Assembly (NCBI RefSeq): GCF_016526145.1
Contig: NZ_JADDUE010000001.1
Location: 806,001 to 870,000 of the forward strand
DNA: 64,000 nucleotides
Source of the DNA: Saccharopolyspora galaxeae
GTDB lineage: Bacteria > Actinomycetota > Actinomycetes > Mycobacteriales > Pseudonocardiaceae
Direction: 5' to 3'
The translations under genes were made by a program, and so were the position numbers. The number at the start of each line of letters is the position of its first letter. Positions within the stretch are counted from its first letter, which is position 1. The notes beneath the pieces are model-generated. The model searched no databases. It saw nothing but the letters and a program-made list of their open reading frames with translations, and was not told where the DNA came from. Shown here piece after piece: positions 38,578 to 61,104 of this stretch.

Positions 38578-38813
38578 TCTTCCTCTCTCCAATCGACTGC
38601 TCGCGGCCGGGCGCACCCCACCGCAAGCCTCCCCCTCGCCCTTCCTATTGCCCGGCCGTGCGCGAGCGGTGGTCCGGTGATTGCGCGGACCTAGATCGAG
38701 GGACATCCCTCGGCTGGACCACAATGGGGCATTCGGCGCGGCCGGCGTCGACCGGCCCGCGTGCGGACATGGAGCCGTGGCGAGCTTTCCGGGCAACGGA
38801 CTCAGGAAGGAGT

Positions 38814-41675
38814 GTGGAGTGGTTCGCGCAGAACGTCGCTTTTCGGCCGAATCTCCCGCTGTGGCCGGTTCCGTCCCGGACGGCCCTGGGCAGTGCCGTG
38901 GCTGAGCGCACATCGGCCGAACAGGATCCGGTTGGCGCGCGGCTGGCCGGCCGCGACGACGTGCTCGCCGAAGTGCTCAGAACCGTGCAGGCCAAGGACG
39001 TTCCCGTGACGTTGCTGAGCGGTGCCGCCGGCTCCGGGCGCACGGCGGTGCTCGCGGAAGTGCGCGATCGCTGCACCGCCGCCGGTGCGCGAGTGCTGGA
39101 GATGCGGGCCACGGAGCCGGACCGCTCGACTCCGTACGGTGCGCTGTACCGGCTGTTGTCGGAAGTGGGCGAACTCGCTCCCGCGGCCGGGGAGGCGCGC
39201 GGATCGGTGCTCGCGCTGGTGGCCAAGCTCAGCGCCGCGCCGGACCCGGCCACCTCGCAGCCCATCGCGGCGCAGCTGGCCGGTGCGCTGCACGCGGCGA
39301 CCCGCAACATGCGGCCGCTGGTGGTGCTGGCCGACGACGCGCAGTGGCTCGACGATGCCACCGCCGCGCTGCTGGAGCCGCTGGTGCAGCGGATGAACGG
39401 CAATTCGTTCTCGATCGTGCTGTCCGCTCGGTCCGATGTGGACTCCGGTAGGGGAGTTGCGGCGCTGCGGCGGCTGCGCGCGGCCGGGCTGGTGCGCACG
39501 GTGACGCTGCGCCCGCTGACCAGGCTGCACAGCGCCCGGCTGATCGCCCGGACATTGCAGGCGAAACCGGACGCGGAAGTCGTCGACATGCTGCACGGCG
39601 CGGCCCGCGGACTGCCCGCGGCGCTGGAGGCGGGCATCGACGCCTACCGGCGCGCCGAGGCGCTGAGCATCGTGGACCGGCACGCCTACCTGGTCTCGCA
39701 CGAGGAACGTCCTGCGCTGGACGATCGGCATCCGCTGCTGGCTCCGGTGCGCGACGCAGGCGGGCAGTCCTGGGCGGTGGCGCGCGCGATGAGCCTGCTC
39801 GCGCCGCTGGGCGAACAGGCGCCGCGGCTGGCCGGAGCGGCCATCGGGCTCGACCCGGAAACCGTGCGGGACGCGCTGGAACGACTCCGCGAGCGTCGCG
39901 TGCTGATCCGCTCCGGACGGCGTTGGCGGTTCCGGGTGCCGATGGTCGGCGTTGCGCTGGAAGCCGGGCTCGGACCGTTCGAGCGCCGCAACCTCGCGGC
40001 CGCGGCGGTCACCGCGATCTGGGACGGCTCGGCGCAAGCAGAAGACCCTGCTTACTTGCCGGACCGGCTGATCGACGCGGGCGCGCTGGTCGATCCGCAG
40101 CGCGCGGGGCGGGAACTGCTCGAAACGGGCGGACAGCGCATCTTCCAGGACACCGCGAACGCCTCGCGCTGGCTGCAAGCGGCCGCGGACAAGCTCGGCG
40201 ATCCGGCCTCGCGCGCCATGGCGCTGATGGGAAACGCCGCCGCGTGCACCTCGCGCAGCCGCTTGAGCGAGACCGCTGAGAACGCCCGCGACCTGCTCAG
40301 CAGGCACGCCGCCGAGCTGGAACCGCAGATGCTGCAGATGTCGGTGCTGTCCTACCTGTCCGTGATCGCCAGCATCAGTGACCACACGGCGCTGCGGCGC
40401 ATCGCCGAGGCGGAGACACCGATGCCGGGCGGGCGGGCGCAGCAACTCGTGGCGCAGGCGTTCGCGCTGGGCTGGCAGGACCAATGGGTGGCGGGCCGCC
40501 GCCTGCTGGACGAGAACCGCGAACTGTGGGCCGGGGCGGAACCGGTGCTGGAAGACCACGTGAACACCTACCGCAGCGGCGTCGCGCTGATGCAGGGCGA
40601 CACCACCGAGCTGTTCCGGTTCATCGAGGACCCGGCGCTGTGGCGCGGCGGCGACCTGCCGACGCAACGGCTCGAAACGGTCCGCTACGAAGTCAACATG
40701 CTGCTCGCGCTGGGCGAGTTGCAGCAGGCGACGGAACTGATGCGGCGCCACGAGCTGCCGCCGTCGCAGCTTTCGGAGATCGGCCGGTTCATCGTCGAGC
40801 ACAGCCGCGGCGACTGGCTGCACGCGCTGGACATCGCCCGGCGCTACATGGCCGCTCCGGTGCACCGCGTCGAGTCCGTCGGCTGGGCGATGCTGCACAT
40901 GGGCGCGGCGCAGGTGCACACCGAAGGCGGGATGCTCGCCCGCGCACGGCACATGACCCAGCGGGCCGGGGACGGATCGTTCGCGTACCTGTTCCGGTTC
41001 GCCGAAGCGCAGGTCTCGCGCGCCCTCGGCGAGCACGAGGACGCCGATGCCCTGCTGCGCGAAGCCGTGCGCATCTCCGAGGAGACCGGATTCGCAGTCG
41101 GCACCGAACTGCTGTGGGCCGAGGTCGCGCTGCGCGCCGAGCTGCGCGAAGACCACGTCGAGGCGCAGGAAGCGTTGGCACGGCTGGAAAAAATGGCGGC
41201 ACGACTCGGCACCGGCCGCGCCGAGCTGGCACTGCGGCTGACCGAGGCGCGGATGCACGGCGACCTGGCGGCCGCGGACGCTGCGGTGGCGCTGGCCCGC
41301 GAGCGCGGGCAGCGCTATGAACAGATCATCACCTTCAGCGGTGTCGCCAAAGCCGGGTTCCACACCGCGAAGCTGCTGCCGGAAGCCTACGAACTGGCGG
41401 GTGAACTGGGCTCGCTGCTGCAACGTTCGCGGCTGCGGCGGGCGATGCGCGAGCACGGCGTCCCGGTGCCCGACCGCACCACCGCGACCCGCGAGAACGA
41501 GCGGCTGCTGGCGGTGCTGGTGACCGAGGGCCTGACCAACCGGCAACTGGCCACTGTGCTCGGTGCCACGGAGAAGAGCGTGGAAGGGCGGCTCACCCGG
41601 ATGTTCGCCCGCATCGGCTACCGGTCCAGAGTGGAACTGGCCGCGGCGATGGTCACCGGCGAGTACCCGGGCTGA
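38814..41675 (+). CDS. Large LuxR-family regulator with N-terminal ATPase (type A, pair 2)
   Basis: About 953 residues from GTG 38814, which follows AGGAAGG; ATG 38769 is an alternative. Walker A is LLSGAAGSGRTAVLAEV and Walker B PLVVLADDAQWLDDAT. The helical middle resembles that of the protein at 15370-18141 (shared FRVP.(V/L)G strand and GLGPFERR(N/R)). The HTH is VTEGLTNRQLATVLGATEKS, then EGRLTRMFARIGYRSR. It is the gene nearest the secretion cluster on the same strand, ending 194 bp before the ART-domain gene, and may activate it. Confidence 0.9.
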   Translation: MEWFAQNVAFRPNLPLWPVPSRTALGSAVAERTSAEQDPVGARLAGRDDVLAEVLRTVQAKDVPVTLLSGAAGSGRTAVLAEVRDRCTAAGARVLEMRATEPDRSTPYGALYRLLSEVGELAPAAGEARGSVLALVAKLSAAPDPATSQPIAAQLAGALHAATRNMRPLVVLADDAQWLDDATAALLEPLVQRMNGNSFSIVLSARSDVDSGRGVAALRRLRAAGLVRTVTLRPLTRLHSARLIARTLQAKPDAEVVDMLHGAARGLPAALEAGIDAYRRAEALSIVDRHAYLVSHEERPALDDRHPLLAPVRDAGGQSWAVARAMSLLAPLGEQAPRLAGAAIGLDPETVRDALERLRERRVLIRSGRRWRFRVPMVGVALEAGLGPFERRNLAAAAVTAIWDGSAQAEDPAYLPDRLIDAGALVDPQRAGRELLETGGQRIFQDTANASRWLQAAADKLGDPASRAMALMGNAAACTSRSRLSETAENARDLLSRHAAELEPQMLQMSVLSYLSVIASISDHTALRRIAEAETPMPGGRAQQLVAQAFALGWQDQWVAGRRLLDENRELWAGAEPVLEDHVNTYRSGVALMQGDTTELFRFIEDPALWRGGDLPTQRLETVRYEVNMLLALGELQQATELMRRHELPPSQLSEIGRFIVEHSRGDWLHALDIARRYMAAPVHRVESVGWAMLHMGAAQVHTEGGMLARARHMTQRAGDGSFAYLFRFAEAQVSRALGEHEDADALLREAVRISEETGFAVGTELLWAEVALRAELREDHVEAQEALARLEKMAARLGTGRAELALRLTEARMHGDLAAADAAVALARERGQRYEQIITFSGVAKAGFHTAKLLPEAYELAGELGSLLQRSRLRRAMREHGVPVPDRTTATRENERLLAVLVTEGLTNRQLATVLGATEKSVEGRLTRMFARIGYRSRVELAAAMVTGEYPG

Positions 41676-41869
41676 GCCGGGCATGGCAAGATCAGCCGCA
41701 GCGGGCCTCCGGGATGAACCCGCGCTTCACCGCGGGAAGTGAGGGATACCCCGCCAGCAGCCTGTCCCCGCCCGATGCTGCGCGTGGACCGTTGGCGCAA
41801 CGGTGATACTCCGGCGGTCGGACCCGTAGAAGCGTCACTTCGAGCCACTTGTGCTCGATGGGAGTGGAG

Positions 41870-44800
41870 ATGCAGCAGGCGTCAGCAGGTCAGTCGCGCG
41901 GTTCGCTGGTAACCGAGCGGTGCGGTTCGCACGTGCTCGTCCGGCGCCGGGACGAGACCGCGACCGAGCGGGCCTTCTTGGCGCAGCTACCGGCCACCCC
42001 GAACGAGCTGTTCGTAGCCGTTTCCCGTGCGGCGCAGCAGGTTCCCGAGCTGCCCGGAGAACTGCCCGCACTGCTCGGGCCGGTGGTGAAGGCCGCGGAG
42101 CAGGCTCCGCGCGTGCTGTGGCTCACCGCTCTCGGCGGCCGCGCCGAGCTGGCGGGCCGGCTTTCCCAGCAGCTCGGCATCGACGTGGTGCTGCCGGACG
42201 TGCAACCCGCGACGGCGCCCGGCACCGGCGCCTACGCCGGACGTGCCGCGGGTGGCAGCGGCTGGTACCGGTTCCGCGCGAACAACCGGCCCCTGCTGTT
42301 CAGCACCCGCTACCCGGTCCCGGGCTGGGAGCGGTCGATGCCCGCCCAGCGGCTGGTGCACGGATCCGCCGCCGTGGAACCGATGCCCGCGGGCGCACTG
42401 GTGCACGACGCGCGGAGATCGCCGCAGGCGGCCGCGCAGCTGGCGGCGCGGGTCGCGGTCTCCTCCCGGTTCCCGAAGCTGCTGCTCGGCGGGCAGGTCT
42501 CGCCGGAAGCGGTCGGCGGCGTGGTCAAGCAGCTGCCGGAGACCGCGCGGGCGGGGCTCATGCTGGTCCCGCTGGTCGCCGACGCGGGCAGGCACCAGTG
42601 GATGGCGGAACTGGCGCTGCGCCTGTCCAGGCCGCTCACCTTCACCGCGGGCGCGGAACTGGCAAACGCGGGCGGCGCCTGCGCGACGGTCCTGCTGGAG
42701 GCGTCCGGGCAGCAGCGGTTCCGCCCGTTCGCGACGGTGCTGCGCCAGCCCGCCGGGGCCGGTGACCAGGAAGTGCTCGACATCGCGGAGCCGCCGCCGG
42801 GCTGGCGGCGCTACGGGCCGCGCTCCTACCGCCTCGCCGCGGACACCGATGACAGCGGGGTGCTGGCCGATGTGGTGCCGTCCGGGATCGTGCTGCACGG
42901 GACCGGGTCGGAGCTGGCCCCGGAAACGGCCGCAAGGGCCGTGCCGTTCAGCCCGGACGAGTGGGTGCTGAACGTGGGCACCGCAGGGGAGGCGGTGGAC
43001 GATGCGCTGCTCACCGCCGTCGAAGCGCTGCTGAACAAGCTCGACCCGGGGCGGCGTGCGACCGTGCGGCTGCGTGCGCCGGGAAAGCTCGAGCACGACA
43101 CCGCGGCGCGGCTGCGCAAGATCGGCTCCGCGGCCGGGGTGCGGATGGACCTCCCGGCCGAGACGCCTGCGCAGTCCACTTCGGACGGTTCGGTGGGTAA
43201 GCCGGAGGGCAGCACCGTCACCGGGACGGAATCCGGCGGTGGTGCGGCATCCGGTCGTGGCCAGGCCGACAGTGCTCGGTCCGGCGGCGCACCGGCCGGT
43301 GATGCGCAGTCGGAACCCGGGCTGTCGGGTTCCGGTGGCCCCCGGCCCGGTGTCGTGCAGCCCGGTGTCGTGCAGCCCGGCTCGGCCGAGTCCCCCGCCG
43401 AGCAGTCCGGGCCGGCGCAGCCGGGAACGGCCGCGCGATCGGATTCGGCTCAGCCCGGACCGGCGGGGACCGGCTCCGGGCAGGCGCCGGAATCTGCGCA
43501 GTCCGATCCGGCGTCCGCGGCCGGGCAGCCGCCGGGCGGCGCGCAATCCGGCACCGGGCGATCGCCTGCGGCCGAACCGCAGGTGCCCTCGGCCGGTCAG
43601 ACCCAGGCGCTCGGCAAGCCGGATGCGCAATCGCCGCAGGCGGCGCCGGCTGCGCCCATCGTGACGATGTCCGCCCCGCCGGTCTCGACCGTGTCCGGGG
43701 CGCCGTCCCGATCGGATTCCGCTGCGCGGGCAACGCCGCCCGATTCGCCCGAGTCCGCCGAGCAGTCGGAGCCCTCCGAACCGCAGGACCGGGAAACCCC
43801 GGAAAATCCGGACGTCACGCCGGAATCGGCGGAGTCCGATTCGGACGGTCCGGACGAGCCGACGAAGCAGAACCGCCCGGTCGGCGAGCCCCCGCAGACC
43901 GGTCCGGACGCGCCGACCGAGCAGAACCGTCCGGTCGGCCGGAATCCGCAGGCGGGTCCGGACGTTCCCGCGAGCCCGGTCGGCAGGCCGGGCCCGAACG
44001 GCCCGGCGACTCCGAACGGTCCCGCGAGCCCGGTCGGCCCAGCCGGTGCGGACCGCCCGATGAGCCGCAACAGCCCTGTCCGTCCCCACAATCCTCAGTC
44101 CCCCAATCCCGGGCATCCGCACAATCCCGCGAACGCCGCCGGTCGCCCGGTTCCGGGCGAGCCGCCGAATCGGGGCGGTTCGGCCAATCCCGCCGGTCCG
44201 GCCGCGCCGCAAGGTCCGGGTGCGGCGAACGGCCCGGCCGCGCCCAACGGTCCGGCCGCGCCCAACGGCCCGGCGAACCGGAACAGGCCGCCCGGCCCGA
44301 ACGTGCCGATCGAGCAGAACCGCCCGATCAACCAGCATCCGCCGAGCGGGCCGAATCCCGTGGCGACTCCGGGTGGTCCGGTCGCCCCGCATGGCCCGGC
44401 GCATCGGAACGGTCCGGCGGCGCCGAACAATCCGGGTGTTCCGAACAATCCGGTGGCGTCCCCGAACGCTGCGCCGAACCCGAACGCTGCGCCGAACCCG
44501 AACGGCCCGGTGACCCCGAACGGTCGCGCCAACCCGAGCGGCGGCCCGGCGGCTCCGAACGCGCCGACACCGCCGAACCCCGCGGGACATCCGAACGCCC
44601 AGCCGAGTCCCAACCCCCGGCCGAACCCGAACGCGCCCGCGCCTCCGGCAGCGCCCGGACCCGCGGGCCCGCGGAACCCGGCGGCTCCGGAAGCCGGACG
44701 CGCTGCCGAACCCCAGGTGCCCGGCGTCGTGAGCGGGCCGGGCCAGTCGACCACCGTGCGGCTGGACCCGGTCGGCGGCTCCGAGCAAGCGGCCGAGCAG

Positions 44801-45691
44801 GCCGCGCCCGTCGAAGAGGCCCCGCCGGATCCGGCTCAGGCGTCGAAGGTCAAGGACCGCAAGAGCACCACCGGCGAGCAGAACCGCTTCGCGGCGGCCG
44901 CGGGCGAGGCGTACTCCGACGCGCTGGCGACCGTGAACGCCGCCATGGCGACCTGGCCTTCGCTGCGCCACTCCGACGACTCCGGCGCCAAAGCCGACTA
45001 CGTCGCGGTGTGCCTGTACCTCGGACTCGGCGACGGCGGGGCGGGCGAACTCAACTCGGCGGTGCGCAGCGGCTCCGCCACCGCGCTGGAAAGCCACCTG
45101 CCATGCCTGGTCTCCGGGATGCGGCGGCTGCCGACGCACCGCAGGCCGGTGCTGCGGCAGTGCACCGTGGCGGACTCGGTCGAGGGGCGCTCCGAACCCG
45201 GCTCGCTGCTGGTGGAGCCGGGGTTCCTCAGCGCGAGCATGAACCTCGACGTGACCGTGCCCGGTGCGCACGTCGATGTGCTGATCTGGCCGTCCAAGGC
45301 GCGCCGCACCTCGGAGCTGGTGTTGAACCGTCCGGTGGACGAGGTCGTGTTCCTCGCGGGCACCCGGTTCAAGACGCTGGCCGTGCGCGAAGCAGCGGAA
45401 TCCGAGGACGGCATCGACGAGGACGACGGCCCGACGGCCCCGCGGGCCGCGGTGCTGTTCCGCGAACTCGCCCCGGACGAACGTTCCACCGGGTCCGAAT
45501 TGGACGAACGGGACCGGGCCGCTCTGTCCAAACTGGACCGGGCGCTGGCCAGGCGGCAGCGCGCCTCGCTGCGGCAGGTGGAGGACTCCGACGTGGTCGC
45601 CCGGCTCACCAGGTCGATGGTCGTGGCGCCCGAGGAGCACGCCGTGGACGAGCAGTTGGCCACCGCCGGAACTTCGGCGGGGCAGTCGTGA
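41870..45691 (+). CDS. Large ESX-associated protein with Pro-rich linker and C-terminal ADP-ribosyltransferase-like domain
   Basis: About 1273 residues. Residues 1-430 are a folded region that I do not recognise as a named family. Residues about 440-950 are a Pro/Asn/Gly/Ser linker (NGPAAPNGPA, EQNRPVG repeats). The last 300 residues contain an ART-like core: LRQC with R1096, GFLSAS with S1121/S1123, and DEVVFLAGTRFKTL with E1158, matching the R-S-E signature. The usual E/Q two residues before the Glu is Val. The preceding KADYVAVCLYLGLGDGGAGELN helix also fits actinobacterial ART-like domains. No signal peptide is seen. Its stop overlaps mycP (GTGA), tying it to the type VII locus as substrate, effector or regulator. 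Confidence 0.65.
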   Translation: MQQASAGQSRGSLVTERCGSHVLVRRRDETATERAFLAQLPATPNELFVAVSRAAQQVPELPGELPALLGPVVKAAEQAPRVLWLTALGGRAELAGRLSQQLGIDVVLPDVQPATAPGTGAYAGRAAGGSGWYRFRANNRPLLFSTRYPVPGWERSMPAQRLVHGSAAVEPMPAGALVHDARRSPQAAAQLAARVAVSSRFPKLLLGGQVSPEAVGGVVKQLPETARAGLMLVPLVADAGRHQWMAELALRLSRPLTFTAGAELANAGGACATVLLEASGQQRFRPFATVLRQPAGAGDQEVLDIAEPPPGWRRYGPRSYRLAADTDDSGVLADVVPSGIVLHGTGSELAPETAARAVPFSPDEWVLNVGTAGEAVDDALLTAVEALLNKLDPGRRATVRLRAPGKLEHDTAARLRKIGSAAGVRMDLPAETPAQSTSDGSVGKPEGSTVTGTESGGGAASGRGQADSARSGGAPAGDAQSEPGLSGSGGPRPGVVQPGVVQPGSAESPAEQSGPAQPGTAARSDSAQPGPAGTGSGQAPESAQSDPASAAGQPPGGAQSGTGRSPAAEPQVPSAGQTQALGKPDAQSPQAAPAAPIVTMSAPPVSTVSGAPSRSDSAARATPPDSPESAEQSEPSEPQDRETPENPDVTPESAESDSDGPDEPTKQNRPVGEPPQTGPDAPTEQNRPVGRNPQAGPDVPASPVGRPGPNGPATPNGPASPVGPAGADRPMSRNSPVRPHNPQSPNPGHPHNPANAAGRPVPGEPPNRGGSANPAGPAAPQGPGAANGPAAPNGPAAPNGPANRNRPPGPNVPIEQNRPINQHPPSGPNPVATPGGPVAPHGPAHRNGPAAPNNPGVPNNPVASPNAAPNPNAAPNPNGPVTPNGRANPSGGPAAPNAPTPPNPAGHPNAQPSPNPRPNPNAPAPPAAPGPAGPRNPAAPEAGRAAEPQVPGVVSGPGQSTTVRLDPVGGSEQAAEQAAPVEEAPPDPAQASKVKDRKSTTGEQNRFAAAAGEAYSDALATVNAAMATWPSLRHSDDSGAKADYVAVCLYLGLGDGGAGELNSAVRSGSATALESHLPCLVSGMRRLPTHRRPVLRQCTVADSVEGRSEPGSLLVEPGFLSASMNLDVTVPGAHVDVLIWPSKARRTSELVLNRPVDEVVFLAGTRFKTLAVREAAESEDGIDEDDGPTAPRAAVLFRELAPDERSTGSELDERDRAALSKLDRALARRQRASLRQVEDSDVVARLTRSMVVAPEEHAVDEQLATAGTSAGQS

Positions 45692-46971
45692 CCGGGCGCG
45701 CGCAGCGCACCGCCGTCTGCCTGGCGCTGGCGGGAGGACTGCTGCCCGCGGTGGCCGTTCCCGCTGCGGCGCAAGGCGATCCGCCGCCGCTGCCGAACTC
45801 GGGGCAGAACTGCATCCAGGCGCCGACGGTGACCTACGAGGGCACTCCGTGGGGCCAGCAGCTGCTGGCACCCGAGCGCATCTGGGACATCACCGAGGGC
45901 AAGGGCATCAAGGTCGCCGTGGTGGACACCGGTGTGGATGCGCGGACGCCGCAGCTCGCGGGCAAGGTGCTGCCCGGCGCGGACGTGATGGGCGGCCCGG
46001 CGAACGGGCCGGCCGCCGACGACTGCTTCGGGCACGGCACGTTCGTGGCCGGGATCATCGGCGCATCGCCCGCCGAAGGCACCGGGTTCACCGGCGTCGC
46101 ACCCGGCGTGCAGATCGTGCCGATCCGGGTGGCCACGGGTACCGAGGAGCAGACCGGCAACACCTTCACCCCTGCCGCGCTGGCCCGCGGCATCCGGGCG
46201 GCAGTGGATTCCGGCGCCCAGGTGATCAACGTCTCGGCGAGCTCCAACGCGCCGGATCCGCAACTGGCCGATGCGGTGCGCTACGCCGCCGAGCGGGACG
46301 TCTCGCTGATCGCCTCCGCCGCGAACGGTGCGCAGAAGGGCGACCCGGTCACTTATCCCGCGTCCTACCCAGGGGTGATCGCGGTGGGGGCGATCGATTC
46401 CGCAGGCAACCATGCGGCGTTCTCCCAGACCGGGCCGTACCTGTCGCTGGTGGCGCCGGGCGTGGACGTGGTCAGCACCGGGCCGCACGGGCCGGGGCAC
46501 TGGCAGGGCAGCGGCACCAGCTACGCGGCGCCGTTCGTGGCGGGCACCGCCGCGCTGGTGCGCGCGTACCACCCCGAGCTGAACGCCGCGCAGGTCAAGC
46601 AGCGGCTGGAGATGACGGCCAGCCATCCGGCGACGGCGCTGCCGGACCCGGCGCTGGGCTGGGGGACGGTGAACCCGACCGCCGCGGTCTCCTCGGTGGT
46701 GAACGGCGAAGGCGGCGTCGGGCGGACCGTGGTGCCGCCGTCGCCGAAACCGGCTTCGGCGCGGCTGGAAGACGATCTGGGGCCGCGACTGGCGCTGCTC
46801 GGTGGCGGTGCTGCCGTGGTGGTGATCCTGGCGCTGGTGCTCGTCTTCCGGCTCGGCGCGGCGGGCAACCGGCGCGGCTGGAGCCCGGCGCGGGTGGTGC
46901 GGGTGCGTCCGGACCGTTCCGAAACCGAACCGGACGCCGAGCAGCAGCCGGTCTCCACCCCCAGCGGCTGA
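45688..46971 (+). CDS. mycP: Type VII secretion mycosin (subtilisin-like serine protease)
   Basis: 427 residues. A signal peptide (CLALAGGLLPAVAVPAAAQ) leads to a subtilase domain with catalytic Asp in VAVVDTGVD, His in CFGHGTFVAGIIG and Ser in GTSYAAPFVAGTAALVR. A C-terminal membrane helix (LALLGGGAAVVVILALVLVFRL) and short basic tail follow. Mycosins sit on the outer face of the membrane and are required for ESX complex stability and substrate processing. The GTG start overlaps the ART-domain gene stop. Confidence 0.95.
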   Translation: MTGRAQRTAVCLALAGGLLPAVAVPAAAQGDPPPLPNSGQNCIQAPTVTYEGTPWGQQLLAPERIWDITEGKGIKVAVVDTGVDARTPQLAGKVLPGADVMGGPANGPAADDCFGHGTFVAGIIGASPAEGTGFTGVAPGVQIVPIRVATGTEEQTGNTFTPAALARGIRAAVDSGAQVINVSASSNAPDPQLADAVRYAAERDVSLIASAANGAQKGDPVTYPASYPGVIAVGAIDSAGNHAAFSQTGPYLSLVAPGVDVVSTGPHGPGHWQGSGTSYAAPFVAGTAALVRAYHPELNAAQVKQRLEMTASHPATALPDPALGWGTVNPTAAVSSVVNGEGGVGRTVVPPSPKPASARLEDDLGPRLALLGGGAAVVVILALVLVFRLGAAGNRRGWSPARVVRVRPDRSETEPDAEQQPVSTPSG

Positions 46972-47054: not shown

Positions 47055-50000
47055 CTAGTCCTTCGACTTCGGGTTGGTGCCCTCGGTCAGCGGGGTTTGG
47101 ACCAGGCGGACCGAGCGGCGGCGGTTGACGTACTGGGCGCGGCCCGGCAACAAGGTGCGCGGACGCAGGTTGCCCAGGAACATGCCCTCGTCCTTCGGGC
47201 AGGACAGCAGCAACCCCGGTGTCCCGAGCTCCCACATCCGCCGGATCACCGGGTTCGACATCGACCGCGCGGCACCGGACGTGCTGCGCGCGATGATCAC
47301 GTGCACCCCGATGTCCGCGCCGTGCGGGATCAGCGGCATCAGCGGTTCCAGCACCCCGCCGCCGAAACCGCTCTCGGCCAGCTGGAAGTCATCGATGATG
47401 ACGAACAGCCGGCCGCCCTGCCACCAGTCCCGCTTCGGCAACCGGCTCGGGCTGATCTCCGGCCCGGGGATGCGCTTCTCCAGCCCGACCGCGGCGCCCG
47501 CGATGGACTTGCCCAGCGCATCCGCACCGACCGCGTACTCGATCTGGTTCTCCGGCGGGATCGAGTCGTGCAGCTCGCGCTGGAAGTCGCCGAACATCAC
47601 CCGCGCCTCGCCCGGGCCGTAGGCGGCGGTGATCGAGCGGGCGATGTGCCGCAGGACGCTGGTCTTGCCGGTCTCCGCATCGCCGTAGACCAGCAGGTGC
47701 GGGCTGGCGTCGAAGTCGTACCACTGGGTGGACAGGCCGACGTCCTCGATGCCCAGCGGCACCCGGACGACCGCCTGCGGCGTCGGCCGCACCGGGTCGG
47801 GCAGGTCGCTCGCCGAGAGCATCGTCGGCAGCATCCGCACCTGCGGAGCCCGCGGCGCGCCCGGCTGGGCCAGCGCCTCGGACAGCTCGGTGGTGGCATC
47901 GGCGAGGTCTTCGGTGTCCGACGTCCCGTCGATGCGCGGCAGCGCCGCCAGGAAGTGCAGCTTGTCGGTGGTCAGCCCGCGGCCGGGAATGTTCGGCACG
48001 GTCGCGGCCAGCCTGCTGTTGACCTCCGAGTCGACCGGGTCGCCGAGCCGCAGCTCATACCGGGTGCCCAGCACGTCCCGCAGCCACGGCCGCATCTCCG
48101 ACCAGCGGTTGGTGGCGACCAGCAGGTGGATGCCGAAGCTCAGGCCGCGCGCGGCGAGCTCGGTGAACCGGTCCTCGAGCTCCTCGAAGTCCTGCCGGAT
48201 CGTGTACCAGCCGTCGACCACCAGGAACACGTCGCCGTACGGGTCGTCCTGGTGGAACCGGCCTTCCCGGCGAGCGCGCCGGTAGCTGGTCATCGAGTCG
48301 ATGTTGTGCTCGGCGAACAGCGCTTCCCGCCGGGCCAGCAGGTTCGTCATCTCCAGCACGGTGCGGGTGACGCGGTCCTTGTCCAGCCGGTTGGCCATGC
48401 TGCCCACGTGCGGCATCTTCGCCAGCGAGCTGAGCGTGCCGCCGAAGTCCAGGCAGTAGAACTGCACTTCAGCGGCGCTGTGCGTGAGCGCCAGCGAGCT
48501 GAGCATGGTGCGCAGCATCGTGCTCTTGCCGGTCTGCGGCCCGCCGACCACGGCCACGTTGCCCTTGCTGCCGGACAGGTCCGCTTCGAGCAGTTCGCGG
48601 CGCTGCTGCGCAGGCAGGTCCACCAGACCCGCCGGGATCTGCAGGCCCGCCGTCTCCAGGTCGCCGACCGGACGCGGCCCGAGCTCACCGTGGTCGACCA
48701 GCGGCGGCAGCAGCTGGTCCAGGGTCGGCGAGGTCTTCAGCGGCGGCAGCCAGACCTGGTGCGCACGGGGACCGATGTCGCGCAGCCGCTCGATCAGCAC
48801 TTCGAGCATGGACTGCGCGGGCTCGTCGGGTGCCGGCTCCGGTTCCGGCTCCTGCTGCGGTGCCGCGGTCGGTTCGACGTAGCCGGTGCCGAACGACACG
48901 ACCTGCTGTTCGGCCTTCGCCCGGGTGGTGCGCTGGCGCTTGCTCGACCGGTACGGGCCGGAGACGTAGGCGCCCTTGAACCGCACCAGATTCGTGGTGT
49001 CCGGACGCAGGTAGCCGTTGCCGGGGCTGGTCGGCAACTCGTAGGCGTCCGGCACCCCGAGCACGCTGCGGCTCTCCATCGCGGAGAAGGTGCGCAGCCC
49101 GATCTTGTAGGACAGGTGCGTCTCGATCTTGTGGATGCGGCCCTCGTCGAGCCGCTGCGAGGCCAGCAGCAGGTGCACCCCGAGGCTCCGGCCGAGCCGG
49201 CCGATCATCGCGAACACGTCGACGAACTCGGGTTTGCTGGAGAGCATCTCGCTGAACTCGTCGACCACGATGAACAGCGCGGGCATCGGTTCCAGCTGCG
49301 CACCCTGCGCGCGGGCCGCCTCGTAGTCGCGCCGCGAGGCGTAGTTGCCGGAGGCGCGCAGGTGCTCCTGGCGGCGGTTGAGCTCGCCGGTGAGCGCGTC
49401 CTGCATCCGGTCGACCAGCTCCAGCTCGTCGGCCAGGTTCGTGATCACCGCCGAGGTGTGCGGCAGCTGGTCGAACCCGAGGAACGCCGCACCGCCCTTG
49501 AAGTCGACGAGCACGAAGTTGAGCTCCTCCGAGGAATGCGTGGCTGCCAGCGCCGCCACCAGGGTCCGCAGCAGTTCGCTCTTGCCGGAGCCGGTCGCGC
49601 CGATGCACAGCCCGTGCGGGCCCATTCCGTCCTCAGCGGATTCCTTGATGTCCAGTTCCAGCGGAGCACCGCCGCCGCCGATGCCGATCGGCACCCGCAG
49701 CCTGCGCTTGGCGGTGGACCGCTCGCGGCGGTACTTGACCGGGTCGAAGGTGCGCACGTCGCCGATCCCGAGCAGTCCGGCCATGTCGTAGTCGCCGGTG
49801 AGCGGCTCGTCCGACTCGTTGGACGCTTCTCCGACGCGGTAGCGCGCCATGGTGCGCGCCAGCGCGGAGGAGCCGATGGTGCTGAGCCGGTCCGGTACGC
49901 ACAACTCGGTGTTGTGCGGCTTGCCGAGCCGGTCGAACGACACGGTGCTGACCAGCTCTTCCTCCACGTCCAGGAACAGCGCGCCCGGTTTCGCCTGCCA

Positions 50001-51050
50001 CGGCAGGGATTCCCCGACGTCGAGCACCACCGCGTTGCGGTAGCCCTCGTCCCCGGCCCGGTGGTCCGGGGGCAGCTGCACCCCGTCGAGGACGATCACC
50101 ACGAACGGTTCGTTCGCGGTGATCGGAGTGTCCGGTTCGAACCGCGGCCGCGAGGTGAACGCCCCGCCGCCGAGCAGTTCCTCCATCGCCCCGATGGATT
50201 CGGCGATCAGCCGCCGCGAACCGGCCGCGTCCCGGCTGTCCGGGGATTGGTTGTGCGGCAACCACTTCAGCCAGTCCCAGGCATCCTGGCGGTCCCCGCT
50301 GGCGCACAGCGCGACCTGCACGTCGCCGGGCGCGTGCGCGGTCGCCAGCTGCGCCAGCATCGCCCGCACCAGCCCGCGCACGTGCTGCGCGTCACCGCGG
50401 AACCGGATCTGCCCGAACCCGCGCAGGTAAACCGCGATCGGGGAGTGCGACAGCGTCGTGTAGGCGCGCAGGAACCGCCGCAGCGCGTGCGCCGCCAGCG
50501 GCTCCAGGTCCTCGACGGGTTTGCTGTCCGGCGGCGTCAGCTTCACCGACGACCGCTGCTTGCCCAGTCCCAGCCGGACTTCGCCGAAGTCGTCGTGCGC
50601 CGGGCGCCGCTCCCACAGCCGGTATCCCAGCGCCAGCGACCACAGCGACCGGGGCGACGGGTGGATCCAGCGCGCCGCCTGCTGCTGGGTGGCGAGCGCT
50701 TCGCGCACCCGGCGGCGGGTCTGCGACAGGTAGCGGATGTAGTCCCGCCGGTGCCCTTGGAGCTTCTGCTTGTGGGTGACCGAACTCCGCAGCATCTGCG
50801 AGACGATCATGCCGACCGCCGAGAGCGCCATCACGCCGCCGCCGATGTAGGCCATCGTGCCGGAACCCGGGCGCACGAACATCATGACCATCGCCAGCGA
50901 ACTCAGGCCCATCGGCGCGTACATCAGCACGCCGCTGAGCCCACCGTCGGTGGACTCGGGTACTGCGGGCGGCTCCTGGATCTCTATCTCTTCGCTCGGT
51001 GCGGTCGGCTTCGGGCGCCGGGACCGCCGAGCGAACAACACCGTGCTCAC
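47055..51050 (-). CDS. eccC: Type VII secretion FtsK/SpoIIIE-type ATPase EccC
   Basis: About 1331 residues, the full single-chain EccC length. An N-terminal pair of membrane helices (APMGLSSLAMVMMFV, MAYIGGGVMALSAVGMIV) is followed by three ATPase domains. Domain 1 has Walker A IGATGSGKSELLRTL and FVLVDFKGGAAFLGF; domain 2 has VGGPQTGKSTMLRTML; domain 3 has YGDAETGKTSVLRHI. EccC drives substrate export and recognises C-terminal signals of WXG100 proteins. The GTG start is preceded by GGGAGAG. It is on the opposite strand to the other core genes, so it is expressed from its own promoter in the 137-bp gap before eccD. Confidence 0.96.
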   Translation of the reverse strand: MSTVLFARRSRRPKPTAPSEEIEIQEPPAVPESTDGGLSGVLMYAPMGLSSLAMVMMFVRPGSGTMAYIGGGVMALSAVGMIVSQMLRSSVTHKQKLQGHRRDYIRYLSQTRRRVREALATQQQAARWIHPSPRSLWSLALGYRLWERRPAHDDFGEVRLGLGKQRSSVKLTPPDSKPVEDLEPLAAHALRRFLRAYTTLSHSPIAVYLRGFGQIRFRGDAQHVRGLVRAMLAQLATAHAPGDVQVALCASGDRQDAWDWLKWLPHNQSPDSRDAAGSRRLIAESIGAMEELLGGGAFTSRPRFEPDTPITANEPFVVIVLDGVQLPPDHRAGDEGYRNAVVLDVGESLPWQAKPGALFLDVEEELVSTVSFDRLGKPHNTELCVPDRLSTIGSSALARTMARYRVGEASNESDEPLTGDYDMAGLLGIGDVRTFDPVKYRRERSTAKRRLRVPIGIGGGGAPLELDIKESAEDGMGPHGLCIGATGSGKSELLRTLVAALAATHSSEELNFVLVDFKGGAAFLGFDQLPHTSAVITNLADELELVDRMQDALTGELNRRQEHLRASGNYASRRDYEAARAQGAQLEPMPALFIVVDEFSEMLSSKPEFVDVFAMIGRLGRSLGVHLLLASQRLDEGRIHKIETHLSYKIGLRTFSAMESRSVLGVPDAYELPTSPGNGYLRPDTTNLVRFKGAYVSGPYRSSKRQRTTRAKAEQQVVSFGTGYVEPTAAPQQEPEPEPAPDEPAQSMLEVLIERLRDIGPRAHQVWLPPLKTSPTLDQLLPPLVDHGELGPRPVGDLETAGLQIPAGLVDLPAQQRRELLEADLSGSKGNVAVVGGPQTGKSTMLRTMLSSLALTHSAAEVQFYCLDFGGTLSSLAKMPHVGSMANRLDKDRVTRTVLEMTNLLARREALFAEHNIDSMTSYRRARREGRFHQDDPYGDVFLVVDGWYTIRQDFEELEDRFTELAARGLSFGIHLLVATNRWSEMRPWLRDVLGTRYELRLGDPVDSEVNSRLAATVPNIPGRGLTTDKLHFLAALPRIDGTSDTEDLADATTELSEALAQPGAPRAPQVRMLPTMLSASDLPDPVRPTPQAVVRVPLGIEDVGLSTQWYDFDASPHLLVYGDAETGKTSVLRHIARSITAAYGPGEARVMFGDFQRELHDSIPPENQIEYAVGADALGKSIAGAAVGLEKRIPGPEISPSRLPKRDWWQGGRLFVIIDDFQLAESGFGGGVLEPLMPLIPHGADIGVHVIIARSTSGAARSMSNPVIRRMWELGTPGLLLSCPKDEGMFLGNLRPRTLLPGRAQYVNRRRSVRLVQTPLTEGTNPKSKD

Positions 51051-51187
51051 ACACTCTCCCTTTGGTGAAAGAAAACCCCAGACTCGCGGTCCCGGGTGCC
51101 GGAGCACCTCGCGTGCGCGCGCGGGCCGCGTACGTTCCTGGCCGGGTCACGGTCTCCAACCCTGGCAGGAAGGACCTCCGGCACCAG

Positions 51188-52594
51188 ATGGCGTTTTCGG
51201 AAGAGCAGACTCAGCATCGCACAACCGAGTCCGGGAGGCTACGGTTCGTCCTCGGCAAGCAGGCGACGGACGTGGCGCTGCCCACCGAAGTGCCGCTGGC
51301 CGACCTACTACCCGCGGTCCTGCCGCAATTCGGTGCGGAGTGGATCGAGCAGGGCGCCGACCACGAGGGCTGGATCGTCCAGCGCGTCGGCGAGCAAGCC
51401 CTGGACGAGGACCGCACGATCGCCGAGCTCGGGCTGCTGGACGGCGAAACCGTCCACTTGCGACCCCGCGCAGGCGAGCTCGCCCCGATCGACTACGACG
51501 ACCTGGTCGACGGCGTCGGTGAGCAGGTGTCGCGGGGCGCGGGCACCTGGAACCCGGAGCGCACCCGCTGGATGCTGCGCGCCGGCGCATTGTTGTTGCT
51601 GCTGCTGGGCTTTCCGCTGCTGATCGGTGCGGCGCCGGTGTTCCCGCAGTTCTCCATCGCCGGTGGCATCACGGTGCTGCTGCTCGGCGCGAGCGCGCTG
51701 GTGGCGCGGGGAGCGGCGAATCCGGTGGTCGCCACGTTGCTGGCCGGAGTCGGCGCCGGATATGCCGCGCTCACCGGAATTTCCTTGCTGCTGGCGCTGG
51801 ATCCGGTGGCCACGCCGGTCGTGATGCTGGCCTGCGGATGCGCCGGCGCGCTGGTCGCGCTGGTCGTCGGCGTGCTCGCGGTGGCCGATTCGGCGCTGCT
51901 GTTCACCGGTGCGATCACTTTCGTCACCGCGGTCGGCGGCACCGCGCTGATCGGCTCGACCGCTCCGGTGCAGCCGCACGCGGCGGGCGCGATCGGGCTG
52001 CTGCTGACGCTGGTCGCGGCGCTGTTCATCCCGTCGCTGTCGTTCCGGCTCTCCGGATTGTCGCTACCGATGCTGCCCGGCAACAGCAGCGAGCTCGGCG
52101 AGGACATCGAGCCGGTGCCGTACCAGCTGGTGGTGGACCGCGGGGCGCTGACCTTCGGCTACTCGAAGGCGCTCTACACCGGACTCGGCGCGGCGCAGAC
52201 GCTGCTGGTGCTCGCGCCGCTGACCGGTAGCGACGTGTGGACGCTGGTGTTCTTCGCGGTCACCGCGGTGCTGCTGTTCCTGCGCGCGCGGCACCCGGAA
52301 GGGGCGGTGCAGCGCTGGTCGCTCATCGTGCCGGGTGGGCTCAGCCTGGTGCTGGTGGTGCTGCTGCTGGCGTTCAGCCAGGAGTCGCTGCTGCGGCTGG
52401 TCGCGTTCTGGCTGCCGGTGCTGCTGGTCGGCACGCTGATGCTGGTGTTCGGTGAGTTCCTGCCCGGGCGGCGGCTGCGCCCGTACTGGGGCAGGGCCGC
52501 GGACATCTTCGAGACGCTGACCGCGGTGGCGGCGCTGCCACTGCTGCTCCAGGTGCTCAACGTCTTCTCGATGATGCGGGGGCTCGCGGGCTGA
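51188..52594 (+). CDS. eccD: Type VII secretion integral membrane protein EccD
   Basis: 468 residues. An N-terminal ubiquitin-like domain (LRFVLGKQATDVALPTEVPLADLL, DGETVHLRP) precedes about 11 hydrophobic helices starting at WMLRAGALLLLLLGFPLLIG. EccD forms the bulk of the membrane pore scaffold. ATG 51188 fits the ubiquitin fold; AGGAAGGA lies 11 bases upstream, a little far. Its stop overlaps the eccB start by one base (TGATG). Confidence 0.93.
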   Translation: MAFSEEQTQHRTTESGRLRFVLGKQATDVALPTEVPLADLLPAVLPQFGAEWIEQGADHEGWIVQRVGEQALDEDRTIAELGLLDGETVHLRPRAGELAPIDYDDLVDGVGEQVSRGAGTWNPERTRWMLRAGALLLLLLGFPLLIGAAPVFPQFSIAGGITVLLLGASALVARGAANPVVATLLAGVGAGYAALTGISLLLALDPVATPVVMLACGCAGALVALVVGVLAVADSALLFTGAITFVTAVGGTALIGSTAPVQPHAAGAIGLLLTLVAALFIPSLSFRLSGLSLPMLPGNSSELGEDIEPVPYQLVVDRGALTFGYSKALYTGLGAAQTLLVLAPLTGSDVWTLVFFAVTAVLLFLRARHPEGAVQRWSLIVPGGLSLVLVVLLLAFSQESLLRLVAFWLPVLLVGTLMLVFGEFLPGRRLRPYWGRAADIFETLTAVAALPLLLQVLNVFSMMRGLAG

Positions 52595-54033
52595 TGCAGT
52601 CGCGCAGGGATCAGGTCCAGGCATACTTCTTCGTCGTCGGGCGGCTGGTTTCGGCCGTGACGCACGGCAAACCGGACGCGCTGGAGATGCCGAACAAGCG
52701 GATCCGCAACGGCATCGTGTTCGGGGTGCTGGTGAGCGTCCTGCTGATGGCGATCTTCGGCATCCTCGGACTGTTCAAGCCCGGCAAGAGCACGGCCTGG
52801 CAGCAGGACGGCTCGATCGTGGTGAACAAGGACAGCGGCGCGCAGTTCGTCTACCTCGGCGGCCAGCTGCGCCCGGTGCTGAACTACTCATCGGCCCGGC
52901 TGGCCGCGGGCGACTCCGGCGGCACGGTGCAGTCGGTTTCGCAGCAGTCGCTGGAGGGAACCCCAGTCGGCCAGCCGATCGGCATTCCCGGCGCGCCGGA
53001 CTCGATCCCGACCGCGCAGACCCTGGAAACCGGGCCGTGGACGGTATGCGTGCAGCCGGGCGCGGCGCGCCCGAAGCCCACCGATCCGGTGGTGACGCTG
53101 AAGTTCGGCAACCGGCCAGGGAAGTCCACATCGGACGGGCAGGGGCTGCTGGTGAGCACCCCGGACAACGCCGTGCACCTGGTGTGGAACGGCAAGCGCT
53201 ACAAGGTCCCGGATCAGCGGACGCTGGACGCGCTGCCCTATGGCAACGTCACCCCGTTGCAGGTCTCGACGGCCTGGCTGGATCCGATTCCCGCCGGGCG
53301 CGACCTCGCGCTGCCCGCGATCGAGGGCGCGGGCTCGCCGGGACCGGTGATCGACGGCAAGCCGAGCAAGGTCGGGCAGGTCTACGAGGTGCGCAACCCG
53401 GCGACCGAATCCGACCAGTTCTACCTGGTGCGCGAGGACGGCAAGACGGCGCTGAACCGGACCAGCGCCGCGCTGGCCCTGGCGTCCCCGGCGGTGCAGT
53501 CCGCCTACCCGGGCGGGCAGGTGAGCGTGCTCCAGGCCGGTCCCACGGCGCTGACGAGCGTGCCCGATTCGGGCGGTCCGGACCTGGTCGGCGGTTTTCC
53601 GCCGGTGCCGCCGCAAGCCGTGGTGCCGCCCCCGGATGCGCAGCCCTGCGCCCGTTACTCCCCGTCCGGCACCGGGGATCTGAAGGTGACCGTGGAGATG
53701 CAGTCCACATCGGAGGTCGACGCGGGTTCAGTGGCGCTGGCCGAGCACGTTTCCGGGTCGATGGCGGACAAGATCTCGCTACCCGCGGGACGCGGTGTGC
53801 TGGCCAAGAGCCTGCCCGCACCCGGGGCGCAGCCGGGCGCTGCCTTCCTGATCACCGATACCGGGACGAAATACCCGCTCGCCGACGACAAGGTGGTGGA
53901 AGGACTCGGTTACTCGCCGACTTCAGCCGTGCAAATTCCGGATGAATTGCTGGACTTGTTGCCTGCGGGTCCGATGCTGACCAGCTCCGGTGCGGTCCAG
54001 GTCCAGACGCCGCAGCCGAATGAGCAGCCCTGA
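52594..54033 (+). CDS. eccB: Type VII secretion protein EccB
   Basis: 479 residues. A cytoplasmic N-terminus (MQSRRDQVQAYFFVVGRL) that is diagnostic of EccB is followed by one membrane helix (NGIVFGVLVSVLLMAIFGIL) and a large extracytoplasmic region with repeat-like segments (GQVYEVRNPATESDQFYLV, YLGGQLRPVLNYSSARL). EccB links the EccCDE membrane complex on the outside. Pro/Gln-rich C-terminus. It is translationally coupled to eccD. Confidence 0.95.
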   Translation: MQSRRDQVQAYFFVVGRLVSAVTHGKPDALEMPNKRIRNGIVFGVLVSVLLMAIFGILGLFKPGKSTAWQQDGSIVVNKDSGAQFVYLGGQLRPVLNYSSARLAAGDSGGTVQSVSQQSLEGTPVGQPIGIPGAPDSIPTAQTLETGPWTVCVQPGAARPKPTDPVVTLKFGNRPGKSTSDGQGLLVSTPDNAVHLVWNGKRYKVPDQRTLDALPYGNVTPLQVSTAWLDPIPAGRDLALPAIEGAGSPGPVIDGKPSKVGQVYEVRNPATESDQFYLVREDGKTALNRTSAALALASPAVQSAYPGGQVSVLQAGPTALTSVPDSGGPDLVGGFPPVPPQAVVPPPDAQPCARYSPSGTGDLKVTVEMQSTSEVDAGSVALAEHVSGSMADKISLPAGRGVLAKSLPAPGAQPGAAFLITDTGTKYPLADDKVVEGLGYSPTSAVQIPDELLDLLPAGPMLTSSGAVQVQTPQPNEQP

Positions 54034-54214
54034 CCCGTGCCGGAACTCGTCCGAAGCGGTCCCGAGGGAAGTCCCTAAAGGACGACGATCGGACGAGCAG
54101 CACGGCTTTCACCCGAGATCACCCGAATAAGCTGGCCGACGGTAGGAAGTCGACCTGTGTCCTGCGGCCGTCGGCTTCCGAAAACCGGATACCCCGCTTC
54201 ACCAGGAGGTTGTG

Positions 54215-54544
54215 GTGGCCAACAACGGCAACGTGAACATCGATCTGCCCGAGATCCAGCGGCAGGCTTCCCAGCACGACACGACCCGGCAGGACATCCA
54301 GACCGAGCTGGACCAGCTCAAGACCCGCATCGACAGCGTGCAGCAGGCCAGCAAGAACGAGATGACCGACGCGCTGCTGGAGCAGTACGAGCAGTCCGTG
54401 CAGAAGCTGAAGAACAGCGTGCTGGCCGACCTGGAGTCGATGGCGCAGCAGATGCGCAAGGTCTCCGGCGACCAGGACGAGCAGGACCGCTCCGCCAGCA
54501 AGCCGGTCCAGTCCGCGGACATGGCCAGCTTCATCCCCAGCTGA
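54215..54544 (+). CDS. WXG100-family ESX protein lacking the WxG motif
   Basis: 109 residues, helical. AGGAGG lies five bases before GTG 54215. Two predicted helices (LPEIQRQASQHDTTRQDIQT, and EMTDALLEQYEQSVQKLKNS) flank SVQQASKNEM at the place where the WxG turn would be. It immediately precedes a bona fide WXG100 protein 56 bp downstream, so the two probably form the secreted heterodimer, this one playing the EsxB/CFP-10-like partner role. Assignment rests on size, helicity and position. Confidence 0.75.
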   Translation: MANNGNVNIDLPEIQRQASQHDTTRQDIQTELDQLKTRIDSVQQASKNEMTDALLEQYEQSVQKLKNSVLADLESMAQQMRKVSGDQDEQDRSASKPVQSADMASFIPS

Positions 54545-54600: not shown

Positions 54601-54900
54601 GTGGCTCCCAAGGTTTACGACTACGAGGCCCTGCAGCAGGCGCAGCAGGACATGAAGAAGACCGTCGACCACATCCGCGACGAGGCCAACAAGCTCATCA
54701 GCCAGGCCCAGCAGCTCCAGCAGAACGGCTGGACCGGTGAGTCCGCGCAGGGCTACAACGCCTCGGCGGAGAAGCTGAAGCAGTCCCTGAACGGCTTCGG
54801 CGAGTACCTCACGCAGCAGCAGCAGAACGTGAACAGCGGTACCGGCAACATGCAGGACACCGACAAGCAGGGCGGCAAGCAGATGGGCCAGTTCGCCTGA
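54601..54900 (+). CDS. WXG100-family ESX protein (EsxA-like)
   Basis: 99 residues, standard WXG100 length, with helix, WTG turn (QNGWTGESAQGYNASA) and second helix (LNGFGEYLTQQQQ). GTG start after CCAGGAAGG. These small helical-hairpin proteins are the core substrates of type VII secretion and are exported as dimers, here presumably with the product of the preceding gene. A hairpin follows 16 bp downstream. Confidence 0.9.
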   Translation: MAPKVYDYEALQQAQQDMKKTVDHIRDEANKLISQAQQLQQNGWTGESAQGYNASAEKLKQSLNGFGEYLTQQQQNVNSGTGNMQDTDKQGGKQMGQFA

Positions 54901-60327: not shown

Positions 60328-60785
60328 CGGACCCGAAACCGGACCCGAAACCGGACGTGCCGACGGACATCGATTCCGCGATGTCCATGCTGGAGCGGGA
60401 GCGCGAGCGCGTCGCCGACGTCACCAAGCAGCAGCAGGGGCAGTCCACGACCGTGCAGGCCAAGGATCACTCGCTGGAAGCGACCTTCGACGGCAGCGGC
60501 GAGCTCACCGGCCTGAAGTTCAACGGGAACAAGTACCGCAGCATGGCGCCCGCGCAGCTGGCCAGCGTGATCGTCGAGACGATCCAGGCCGGGCGGACGC
60601 AGAGCATGACCAAGCTGACCGAGCAGATGTCCGGCGGCATGCTGCCGGGCGTCGACCTGGCGGGGATCGCCTCCGGCAAGGTCGACCCGAGCACGGTGCT
60701 CGACCAGCTGATGAAGCCGATCGTCGGAATGGCCGAGGAACTGCCGGGCGTCCCGCGCGAGAAGAAGGACCGCAGGGATGGCTGA
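60324..60785 (+). CDS. YbaB/EbfC-family protein (EspL-like)
   Basis: 153 residues. The central 100 residues match the YbaB/EbfC fold: HSLEATFDGSGELTGLKFN with the strand-turn-strand, then PAQLASVIVETIQAGRTQSM. In mycobacterial ESX-1 a YbaB-like protein (EspL) accompanies PPE-like substrates and stabilises them; the same role is likely here. It overlaps both neighbours (ATGA upstream, eight bases downstream). Confidence 0.82.
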   Translation: MTDPKPDPKPDVPTDIDSAMSMLERERERVADVTKQQQGQSTTVQAKDHSLEATFDGSGELTGLKFNGNKYRSMAPAQLASVIVETIQAGRTQSMTKLTEQMSGGMLPGVDLAGIASGKVDPSTVLDQLMKPIVGMAEELPGVPREKKDRRDG

Positions 60786-61104
60786 CGAGAACTTCCGCAT
60801 CGACCCCGACGCGCTCGAAGACATCAACAAGAAGCTGCGCGCGGTGGGCGAGGACCTCACGGCGAGCTTCAACGAGATGAAGACGACGCTCGAAGACCAT
60901 TGGGGCTGCTGGGGCAACGACGATATCGGTGAGGCGTTCATCAAGAACTTCGAAGAGCCGAACAAGAAGTTGCAAGAGGGCGCTGAGGCCATGAGCGGCG
61001 CCCCGAACGGCTTGGCCGACCAGATCGACAAGCAGATCGAGGTCGTCCGCAAACAGGACGCCGCGAACCGCGCCGCCATCGAGCAGAACGAATACGGAAA
61101 CTGA
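60778..61104 (+). CDS. WXG100-like protein paired with the downstream giant protein
   Basis: 108 residues with two helices (PDALEDINKKLRAVGEDLTA, and AFIKNFEEPNKKLQEGAEAM) around DHWGCWGNDDIGEAF, where the turn is WGN. It overlaps the YbaB-like gene and ends 68 bp before a large toxin-like gene. Small WXG100 proteins in this position usually dimerise with the N-terminal domain of the large substrate to target it for export. Confidence 0.82.
   Translation: MADENFRIDPDALEDINKKLRAVGEDLTASFNEMKTTLEDHWGCWGNDDIGEAFIKNFEEPNKKLQEGAEAMSGAPNGLADQIDKQIEVVRKQDAANRAAIEQNEYGN

Follow-up and report, generated by a model that had tools for sequence, protein, structure and literature searches.

The ART gene and its ESX locus

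A 64,000-nucleotide stretch of the Saccharopolyspora galaxeae genome (contig NZ_JADDUE010000001.1, positions 806,001 to 870,000; hereafter the window) carries an ESX locus, i.e. the genes of a type VIIa secretion system (T7SS), and inside its operon lies a large open reading frame (ORF) whose product has an ADP-ribosyltransferase (ART)-like C terminus. This observation, first made in an initial annotation of the letters alone, is confirmed here. The gene, its parts and the ESX genes around it are listed below in window coordinates; residue numbers refer to the 1273-residue ART protein.

41870..45691, + strand: 1273-residue protein with a tandem-repeat N-terminal domain, a Pro/Ala/Asn-rich linker and a predicted ART-fold domain
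41870..43189, + strand: N-terminal domain (residues ~1-440), a probable tandem repeat for which no known family was found
43190..44824, + strand: low-complexity linker (residues ~441-985), 23% Pro
44867..45565, + strand: predicted ART-fold domain (residues ~1000-1232), with PDB profile matches to XopAI, Tre1 and Vis
45065..45067, + strand: R1066, an aliph-R-type residue (AVR) placed by the PDB alignment; motif as defined in PMC6829252
45155..45157, + strand: R1096, aligned to the arom-R arginine of Tre1 and Vis
45230..45238, + strand: S1121-A-S1123, aligned to the STS motif
45335..45343, + strand: V1156-D-E1158, aligned to [QE]xE; catalytic-Glu position present, first Glu/Gln absent
45688..46971, + strand: mycosin MycP (TIGR03921, T7SS_mycosin, E 1.6e-95), start overlapping the ART gene stop by 4 nucleotides
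47055..51107, - strand: EccC ATPase, longest ORF (TIGR03924 and TIGR03925)
51188..52594, + strand: EccD (TIGR03920), start taken from the gene calls
52594..54033, + strand: EccB (TIGR03919, PF05108)
54212..54544, + strand: WXG100-like protein (PF06013 at E 2.5e-4, below the family cut-off)
54601..54900, + strand: second small protein, WXG-like by eye (family F16), with members of the same family at the same place in sister loci

The ORF at 41870-45691 is open and coding-like, its GC content at third codon positions being 0.87 versus 0.76 in a long antisense ORF (41987-45871), and an in-frame ATG at 41858 offers an alternative start. Its TGA stop (45689-45691) and the GTG start of the mycosin gene at 45688 share four bases (GTGA, 45688-45691), which supports the initial statement that the gene is built into the secretion operon. 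The long Pro/Asn linker described at the same time is likewise borne out (7.5% Asn over residues ~441-985), and linker length varies from 24 to 672 residues across 74 family genes. As also stated there, the protein carries neither a WXG-like N terminus nor a signal peptide: a search of the whole protein gave no match to WXG or any other Pfam family up to E 0.1, no signal-like N terminus was seen by eye, and no membrane-helix-like stretch is present (highest 19-residue hydropathy mean, 1.16).

The N-terminal region, of which some 430 residues had initially been assigned to no family, resisted classification here as well. For residues 1-449, NCBIfam gave no family up to E 1, and Pfam a single, meaningless match at E 0.59; across Pfam, NCBIfam and the PDB no convincing family emerged for the N-terminal domain, the best PDB match being a dehydratase activator (E 0.0055). 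Caspase-like repeats were considered for this region, but nothing in these three databases matched and they are not claimed. The two halves of the domain align to each other (hhalign probability 98.1%, E 9e-14, an E that is only indicative in a pairwise run), which supports its reading as a tandem repeat.

The predicted ART fold and the architecture of the family

The relationship to ARTs becomes visible at the level of the family. Searched alone against the PDB, the window sequence retrieved only Vis and Tre1 at E 1.4-2, too distant for significance. With a four-sequence alignment as query, species genomes yielded at least 78 loci with relatives, and a profile of 75 ART domains (A2; the window and 74 of 78 genome loci, with no known ART included) was searched against the PDB in turn. 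It retrieved XopAI (E 3.3e-21), Tre1 (1.3e-15), Vis (3.9e-11), ExoT (3.2e-4) and VsdC (3.5e-4), with HopU1 and a 65 kDa virulence protein making up the remaining matches at E 0.04-0.07. All 11 PDB sequences listed up to E 10 are ADP-ribosyltransferase-type proteins, ExoT, VsdC and the 65 kDa virulence protein included. Profiles of single clades, described below, gave the same leading matches: XopAI (5.6e-5), Tre1 (1.4e-3) and Vis (5.1e-3) for clade A, and XopAI (3.6e-15) and Tre1 (2.1e-8) for clade B (22 sequences). Of the 75 members, 44 matched the NCBIfam XopAI model at E 0.1 or better (best 2.4e-8, window 0.004); as far as displayed, these matches lie far below the model's curated 300-bit cut-off or bear no relation to it. 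No Pfam ART family matched any of the 75. Because at least 78 genome loci hold relatives and a profile free of known ARTs retrieves ART-fold proteins from the PDB, the relationship is not a chance one, and the profiles support an ART fold for the C-terminal domain.

The N-terminal and ART domains nearly always occur together. Genes were called in 84 loci (78 genome and 6 plasmid loci) and the window, and a census of 90 family genes found both domains in 74, ART only in 13 (some at contig ends) and the N-terminal domain only in 3, each of which has an ART domain in the adjoining ORF; no gene outside the family in these loci matched the N-terminal profile. Since this set had been retrieved by ART, plasmids were searched with the N-terminal domain as query. 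Two such queries gave 24 distinct places among the matches listed (4 more lie outside the list). An ART domain lies on the same strand at a distance of up to 2 kb in 19 of the 24, and none was detected in the other 5. The latter comprise two stand-alone genes (L085:3791-5197, 468 residues, and L086:3854-5161, 435 residues), which adjoin a RICIN-domain protein, a beta-helix protein and a giant gene, and one locus shared by three related plasmids, which adjoins transposases in the one inspected. The inspected ART-free genes end soon after the N-terminal domain, and a profile check for ART in these three loci gave nothing convincing (best E 0.02). The N-terminal domain can thus exist without ART, and no alternative C-terminal domain was seen on the same N terminus in the 84 loci, the window or the plasmid places among the matches listed. 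As far as these predicted proteins tell, the pairing is near-fixed and does not follow the mix-and-match pattern of polymorphic toxins.

One ORF of 1859 codons in Nocardia terrae (L076:7913-13492) carries a related ART domain followed by a papain-fold toxin 1 domain; its ART row forms a very long branch in the tree. It had been considered as a fusion of ART with an AAA domain and was rejected as such, Pfam giving the papain-fold toxin domain instead.

Gene neighbourhoods and active-site positions in the clades

A tree of 83 ART domains, from which a fragment (L077) and a duplicate (L002, the same plasmid as L034) were left out, contains three main clades. Clade A unites 18 rows including the window at 99/98 and is weakly joined by L023 at 82/55, giving 19 rows; clade B has 26 rows at 93/94, short of the tree tool's star, and clade C 27 rows at 99/92. 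The other 11 rows fall outside these clades and are left out of the clade counts (72 rows).

ESX genes were counted within the fetched stretch around each ART locus. The survey suggested initially, of whether the gene precedes mycP in other actinomycetes, gave this result within the window's clade: mycP lies directly downstream in 13 of the 18 clade A relatives, the 4-nucleotide overlap being called in 9 of these 13, and mycP, EccC, EccD and EccB all occur within the fetched stretch in 10 of 18. The exceptions, where mycP is not next, are L009, L010, L017, L021 and L022. In L009 and L010, the ART gene is followed by a small F11 gene, WXG100-like in L009, and then by a protein of more than 3100 residues. 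The L009 copy (L009:11389-20784), the only one scanned, is a giant of at least 3132 residues that runs off the stretch and has an N-terminal WXG100_2 domain as well as SecA-like domains. Giants similar to it were seen in L010 and L011.

Of the 26 clade B loci, 18 have EccB upstream of the ART gene. A member of family F1, defined by blastp clustering, directly follows the ART gene in 18 of 26; 14 of these F1 genes overlap the ART gene by 4 nucleotides. All four F1 members scanned (the L002 piece, L004, L008 and L013) combine Beta_helix, AAA and AAA_lid_6 domains, while the L069 piece gave Beta_helix only. On plasmid SNP1 of S. nigrescens, the ART protein and the beta-helix AAA+ ATPase are fused in frame in a single ORF of 2098 residues, counted once. 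A 2155-codon ORF in L069 was a candidate for a second fusion and remained uncounted; the reading frame of its ART domain appears to shift in the contig at ~10500. F1 genes also occur in clade A, upstream of the ART gene within three called genes in 9 of 18 loci and directly upstream in 6. A beta-helix in EccA is mentioned in PMC10659427. EccA-type AAA+ chaperones of the T7SS, in their beta-helix subtype, are operon neighbours and once a fusion partner of the family, i.e. partners and not homologues. The ART-fold gene has a conserved place in the ESX loci of clades A and B, and neither of the two outcomes that the initial annotation had set against itself, a C-terminal fold predicted to be unlike ARTs or absence of the gene from related ESX loci, was found.

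The active site paints a less uniform picture. As defined in PMC6829252, R-S-E-type ARTs carry arom-R, [YFL]-R-X; STS, S-[TS]-[STQ]; and [QE]-X-E on the ADP-ribosylating turn-turn (ARTT) loop. In the PDB alignment, the Tre1 and Vis arginine falls on R1096, STS on S1121-A-S1123 and the catalytic Glu on E1158, so that the initial annotation had picked the right residues (R1096, S1121 and E1158 for the catalytic R, S and E). R1091, which looked invariant within RLP-x-x-R of the four-sequence alignment, was rejected as the catalytic arginine because that of Tre1 and Vis falls on R1096. The window protein has arom-R (L1095-R1096-Q1097), the aliph-R-type AVR and both serines of STS with Ala in the middle, and lacks [QE]-X-E (V1156-D-E1158).

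Across the family, the R-S-E triad is not a strongly conserved signature. R is found at position 1096 in 16 of 19 rows of clade A, 26 of 27 of clade C and none of 26 of clade B, and E at 1158 in 18 of 19, 22 of 27 and, again, none of 26, clade B having R (23) or Q (3) instead. Position 1156 is E or Q in just one of the 72 clade rows, [QE]xE being missing in the other 71; in clade A, residue 1156 is hydrophobic in 18 of 19 rows and Q in L023. Among the 19 clade A rows, position 1121 is S or T in 12 and one of V, C, N, D and I in the other 7; R1096 is replaced by C in the three Micromonosporaceae rows, and E1158 by H in L080, where the gene order is unchanged. Ranked by conservation among 215 columns of clade A, E1158 comes 33rd, R1096 67th and S1121 129th; the invariant columns are C1079, S1082, G1083, R1086, L1087, P1088, R1091, R1145 and F1161. 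A synteny-based mycP class including the window (n=19) has R1096 in 15, E1158 in 16 and R, S/T and E together in 12, with the proviso that the synteny classes count the L002/L034 plasmid twice and differ from the tree clades.

The tree implies at least six changes for the E state at 1158 and three for the R state, and the R of clade B is strongly retained (rank 20 of 215). Loss of the catalytic Glu in clade B looks derived, because XopAI, Tre1 and Vis all carry Glu at this position. The alignment thus shows the predicted catalytic positions to be eroded in part of the family. What stands of the R-S-E ART-like C terminus claimed at the outset is the fold, by profile, and the choice of residues; its status as a signature does not, the triad being weakly kept, [QE]xE absent, S1121 variable and a whole sister clade devoid of R and E.

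A possible accessory role and its alternatives

We propose, with a probability of about 0.5, that the protein is a cytosolic accessory component of the ESX-type T7SS that works with an EccA-like ATPase and uses its ART fold mainly for binding, and that it is not an exported toxin. This role is favoured because of the near-fixed architecture, the coupling to MycP and the EccA-like ATPase, the fusion, the lack of recognised export or immunity features and the partial catalytic loss; on the question left initially, of whether the protein is exported or acts inside, the evidence favours acting inside. The tandem-repeat domain would be the family-defining part, and the long flexible linker would tether an ART fold taken over as a binding module, which probably recognises a peptide or a nucleotide carried by substrates or by the machine. 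Synthesis of the protein would be coupled to that of MycP in the window's clade and, in the sister clade, to that of the beta-helix EccA-like AAA+ ATPase, to which it was fused once; from this coupling and fusion, an adaptor for the EccA-like ATPase or for the substrates it handles appears the most likely role.

XopAI offers an analogy for such a binding module. This type III effector of Xanthomonas (PDB 6k93/6k94) is the best solved-structure match for the whole family, clade A and clade B, and shares with the window an altered ART site and the Ala in the middle of STS; it differs in having T at R1096 and AAS in place of SAS, and in retaining [QE]xE. Its altered cleft is reported in PMC6829252 to be unsuitable for nicotinamide adenine dinucleotide (NAD+) and to bind an arginine peptide. 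XopAI is a plant-directed effector, whereas the window gene lies in an ESX operon and has a different N-terminal domain. A pseudoenzyme as a T7SS component would have a precedent in the pseudokinase EssB/YukC of the T7SSb (compare PMC9600267). This membrane protein has a different fold and comes from a different phylum.

Several observations weigh against the accessory role. The window copy itself retains R1066, R1096, S1121, S1123 and E1158, and its sequence would allow NAD+ binding and turnover; R1096 and E1158 also stand together in 15 of 19 rows of clade A and 22 of 27 of clade C. The ESX link was observed in loci that had been retrieved by their ART domain. In the vicinity of the window gene and of its closest relative, L007, there is no beta-helix AAA+ gene, and the fetched stretches of 9 of the 18 clade A loci have none either. 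Clade C lacks mycP, EccC, EccD and EccB in the fetched stretch in 23 of 27 loci, any of them being present in only four (L029, L032, L071 and L079), and the next gene belongs to family F15 or F17 in 14 of 27, where a substrate role is conceivable; two F15/F17 members carry ricin-lectin domains.

The foremost alternative, which we consider rather unlikely, is a working intracellular ADP-ribosyltransferase that regulates the secretion machine through modification of one of its components or of a substrate; the sister clade, having R for E, would then be a later pseudoenzyme branch. This alternative would account for the residues kept in the window, i.e. arom-R (LRQ), aliph-R (AVR), S-A-S and the catalytic Glu, and for E1158 in nearly all clade A rows, and two of the solved relatives are termed ADP-ribosyltransferases, Vis in its PDB deposit and Tre1 in PMC6829252. 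Tre1 (PDB 6dre/6drh), a type VI effector and the second-best match, has R, S and E on R1096, S1121 and E1158, yet its motifs read STS and E-A-E. In the window protein they read SAS and V-D-E, and no targeting domain was recognised in it. Against an active enzyme stand the hydrophobic residue at the first [QE]xE position, the replacements of S1121, the three Cys at R1096, the His at E1158 of L080 despite the same gene order, and the place of the triad outside the most conserved columns. Judged from sequence, an ADP-ribosylating activity is neither shown nor excluded, and a loss of catalysis in the window's own copy is putative.

Export by the adjoining machine as an ART toxin is an improbable explanation. 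In its favour, PMC3482391 lists T7SS as one export route of Tox-ART-RSE polymorphic toxin domains, which likewise have R, S and E on an ART fold. The length and low complexity of the linker are effector-like, giants and ricin-lectin proteins adjoin some genes of clade C, and the Nocardia terrae ORF joins a related ART to a papain-fold toxin domain. Yet Pfam found no N-terminal targeting family (WXG, LXG or WXG100_2) in the window protein, while the candidate substrate at 61173 has WXG100_2. The next gene is mycP in the window and most clade A relatives, and no adjoining immunity gene was recognised, with no immunity library searched. In further contrast to Tox-ART-RSE toxins, no C terminus was seen varying on a constant N terminus, and a mostly-ESX clade, with EccB upstream in 18 of 26 loci, lacks the catalytic residues. 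Least probable is a relic reading, in which the ART domain is decaying and the N-terminal domain that carries it performs the actual function: stand-alone N-terminal-domain genes exist and catalytic residues were lost more than once, but 16 of the 18 relatives in clade A share 54-75% identity with the window's ART domain (the remaining two 40% and 43%), with many invariant non-catalytic residues, and decay would not give the strongly retained R at 1158 of clade B.

To our knowledge, how T7SS substrates are chosen outside mycobacteria, and with which partners EccA works there, is an open question. A wider form of the accessory role, which we put forward tentatively, is that non-mycobacterial actinomycete ESX systems use an unnamed cytosolic part in which a tethered, repurposed ART fold reads substrates, perhaps by an arginine-bearing signal, and hands them to the beta-helix EccA, thereby serving as the substrate adaptor, a role that falls to other proteins in mycobacteria; the large branch with Arg for the catalytic Glu would then be a dedicated pseudo-ART. 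A conserved gene coupled to mycP in clade A, and coupled to or in one case fused with an EccA-like ATPase gene in clade B, gives a direct handle on this substrate choice. Members of the family also range naturally from ART folds that keep the triad to ART folds that lack it, which makes the use of the fold as a binding module, as in XopAI, testable in soil actinomycetes. No published description of the family was found in the titles and abstract starts of open-licence PMC papers on ART with T7SS, mycosin, EccA, actinobacteria or Saccharopolyspora, on pseudoenzyme ART folds and on Streptomyces T7SS, and one may exist elsewhere.

Two further groups of genes flank the locus. Upstream of it, AAA/LuxR-type regulators form a divergent pair (35761-38577, - strand, and 38724-41675, + strand); their family, F5, comprises 20 genes in 10 sources, several of them near an ART gene. 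Towards the other end of the window, a YbaB-like gene and a small F11 gene (60324-61104) precede a WXG100_2 protein that runs off the window end (61173-64000), a group that is a candidate T7SS substrate module.

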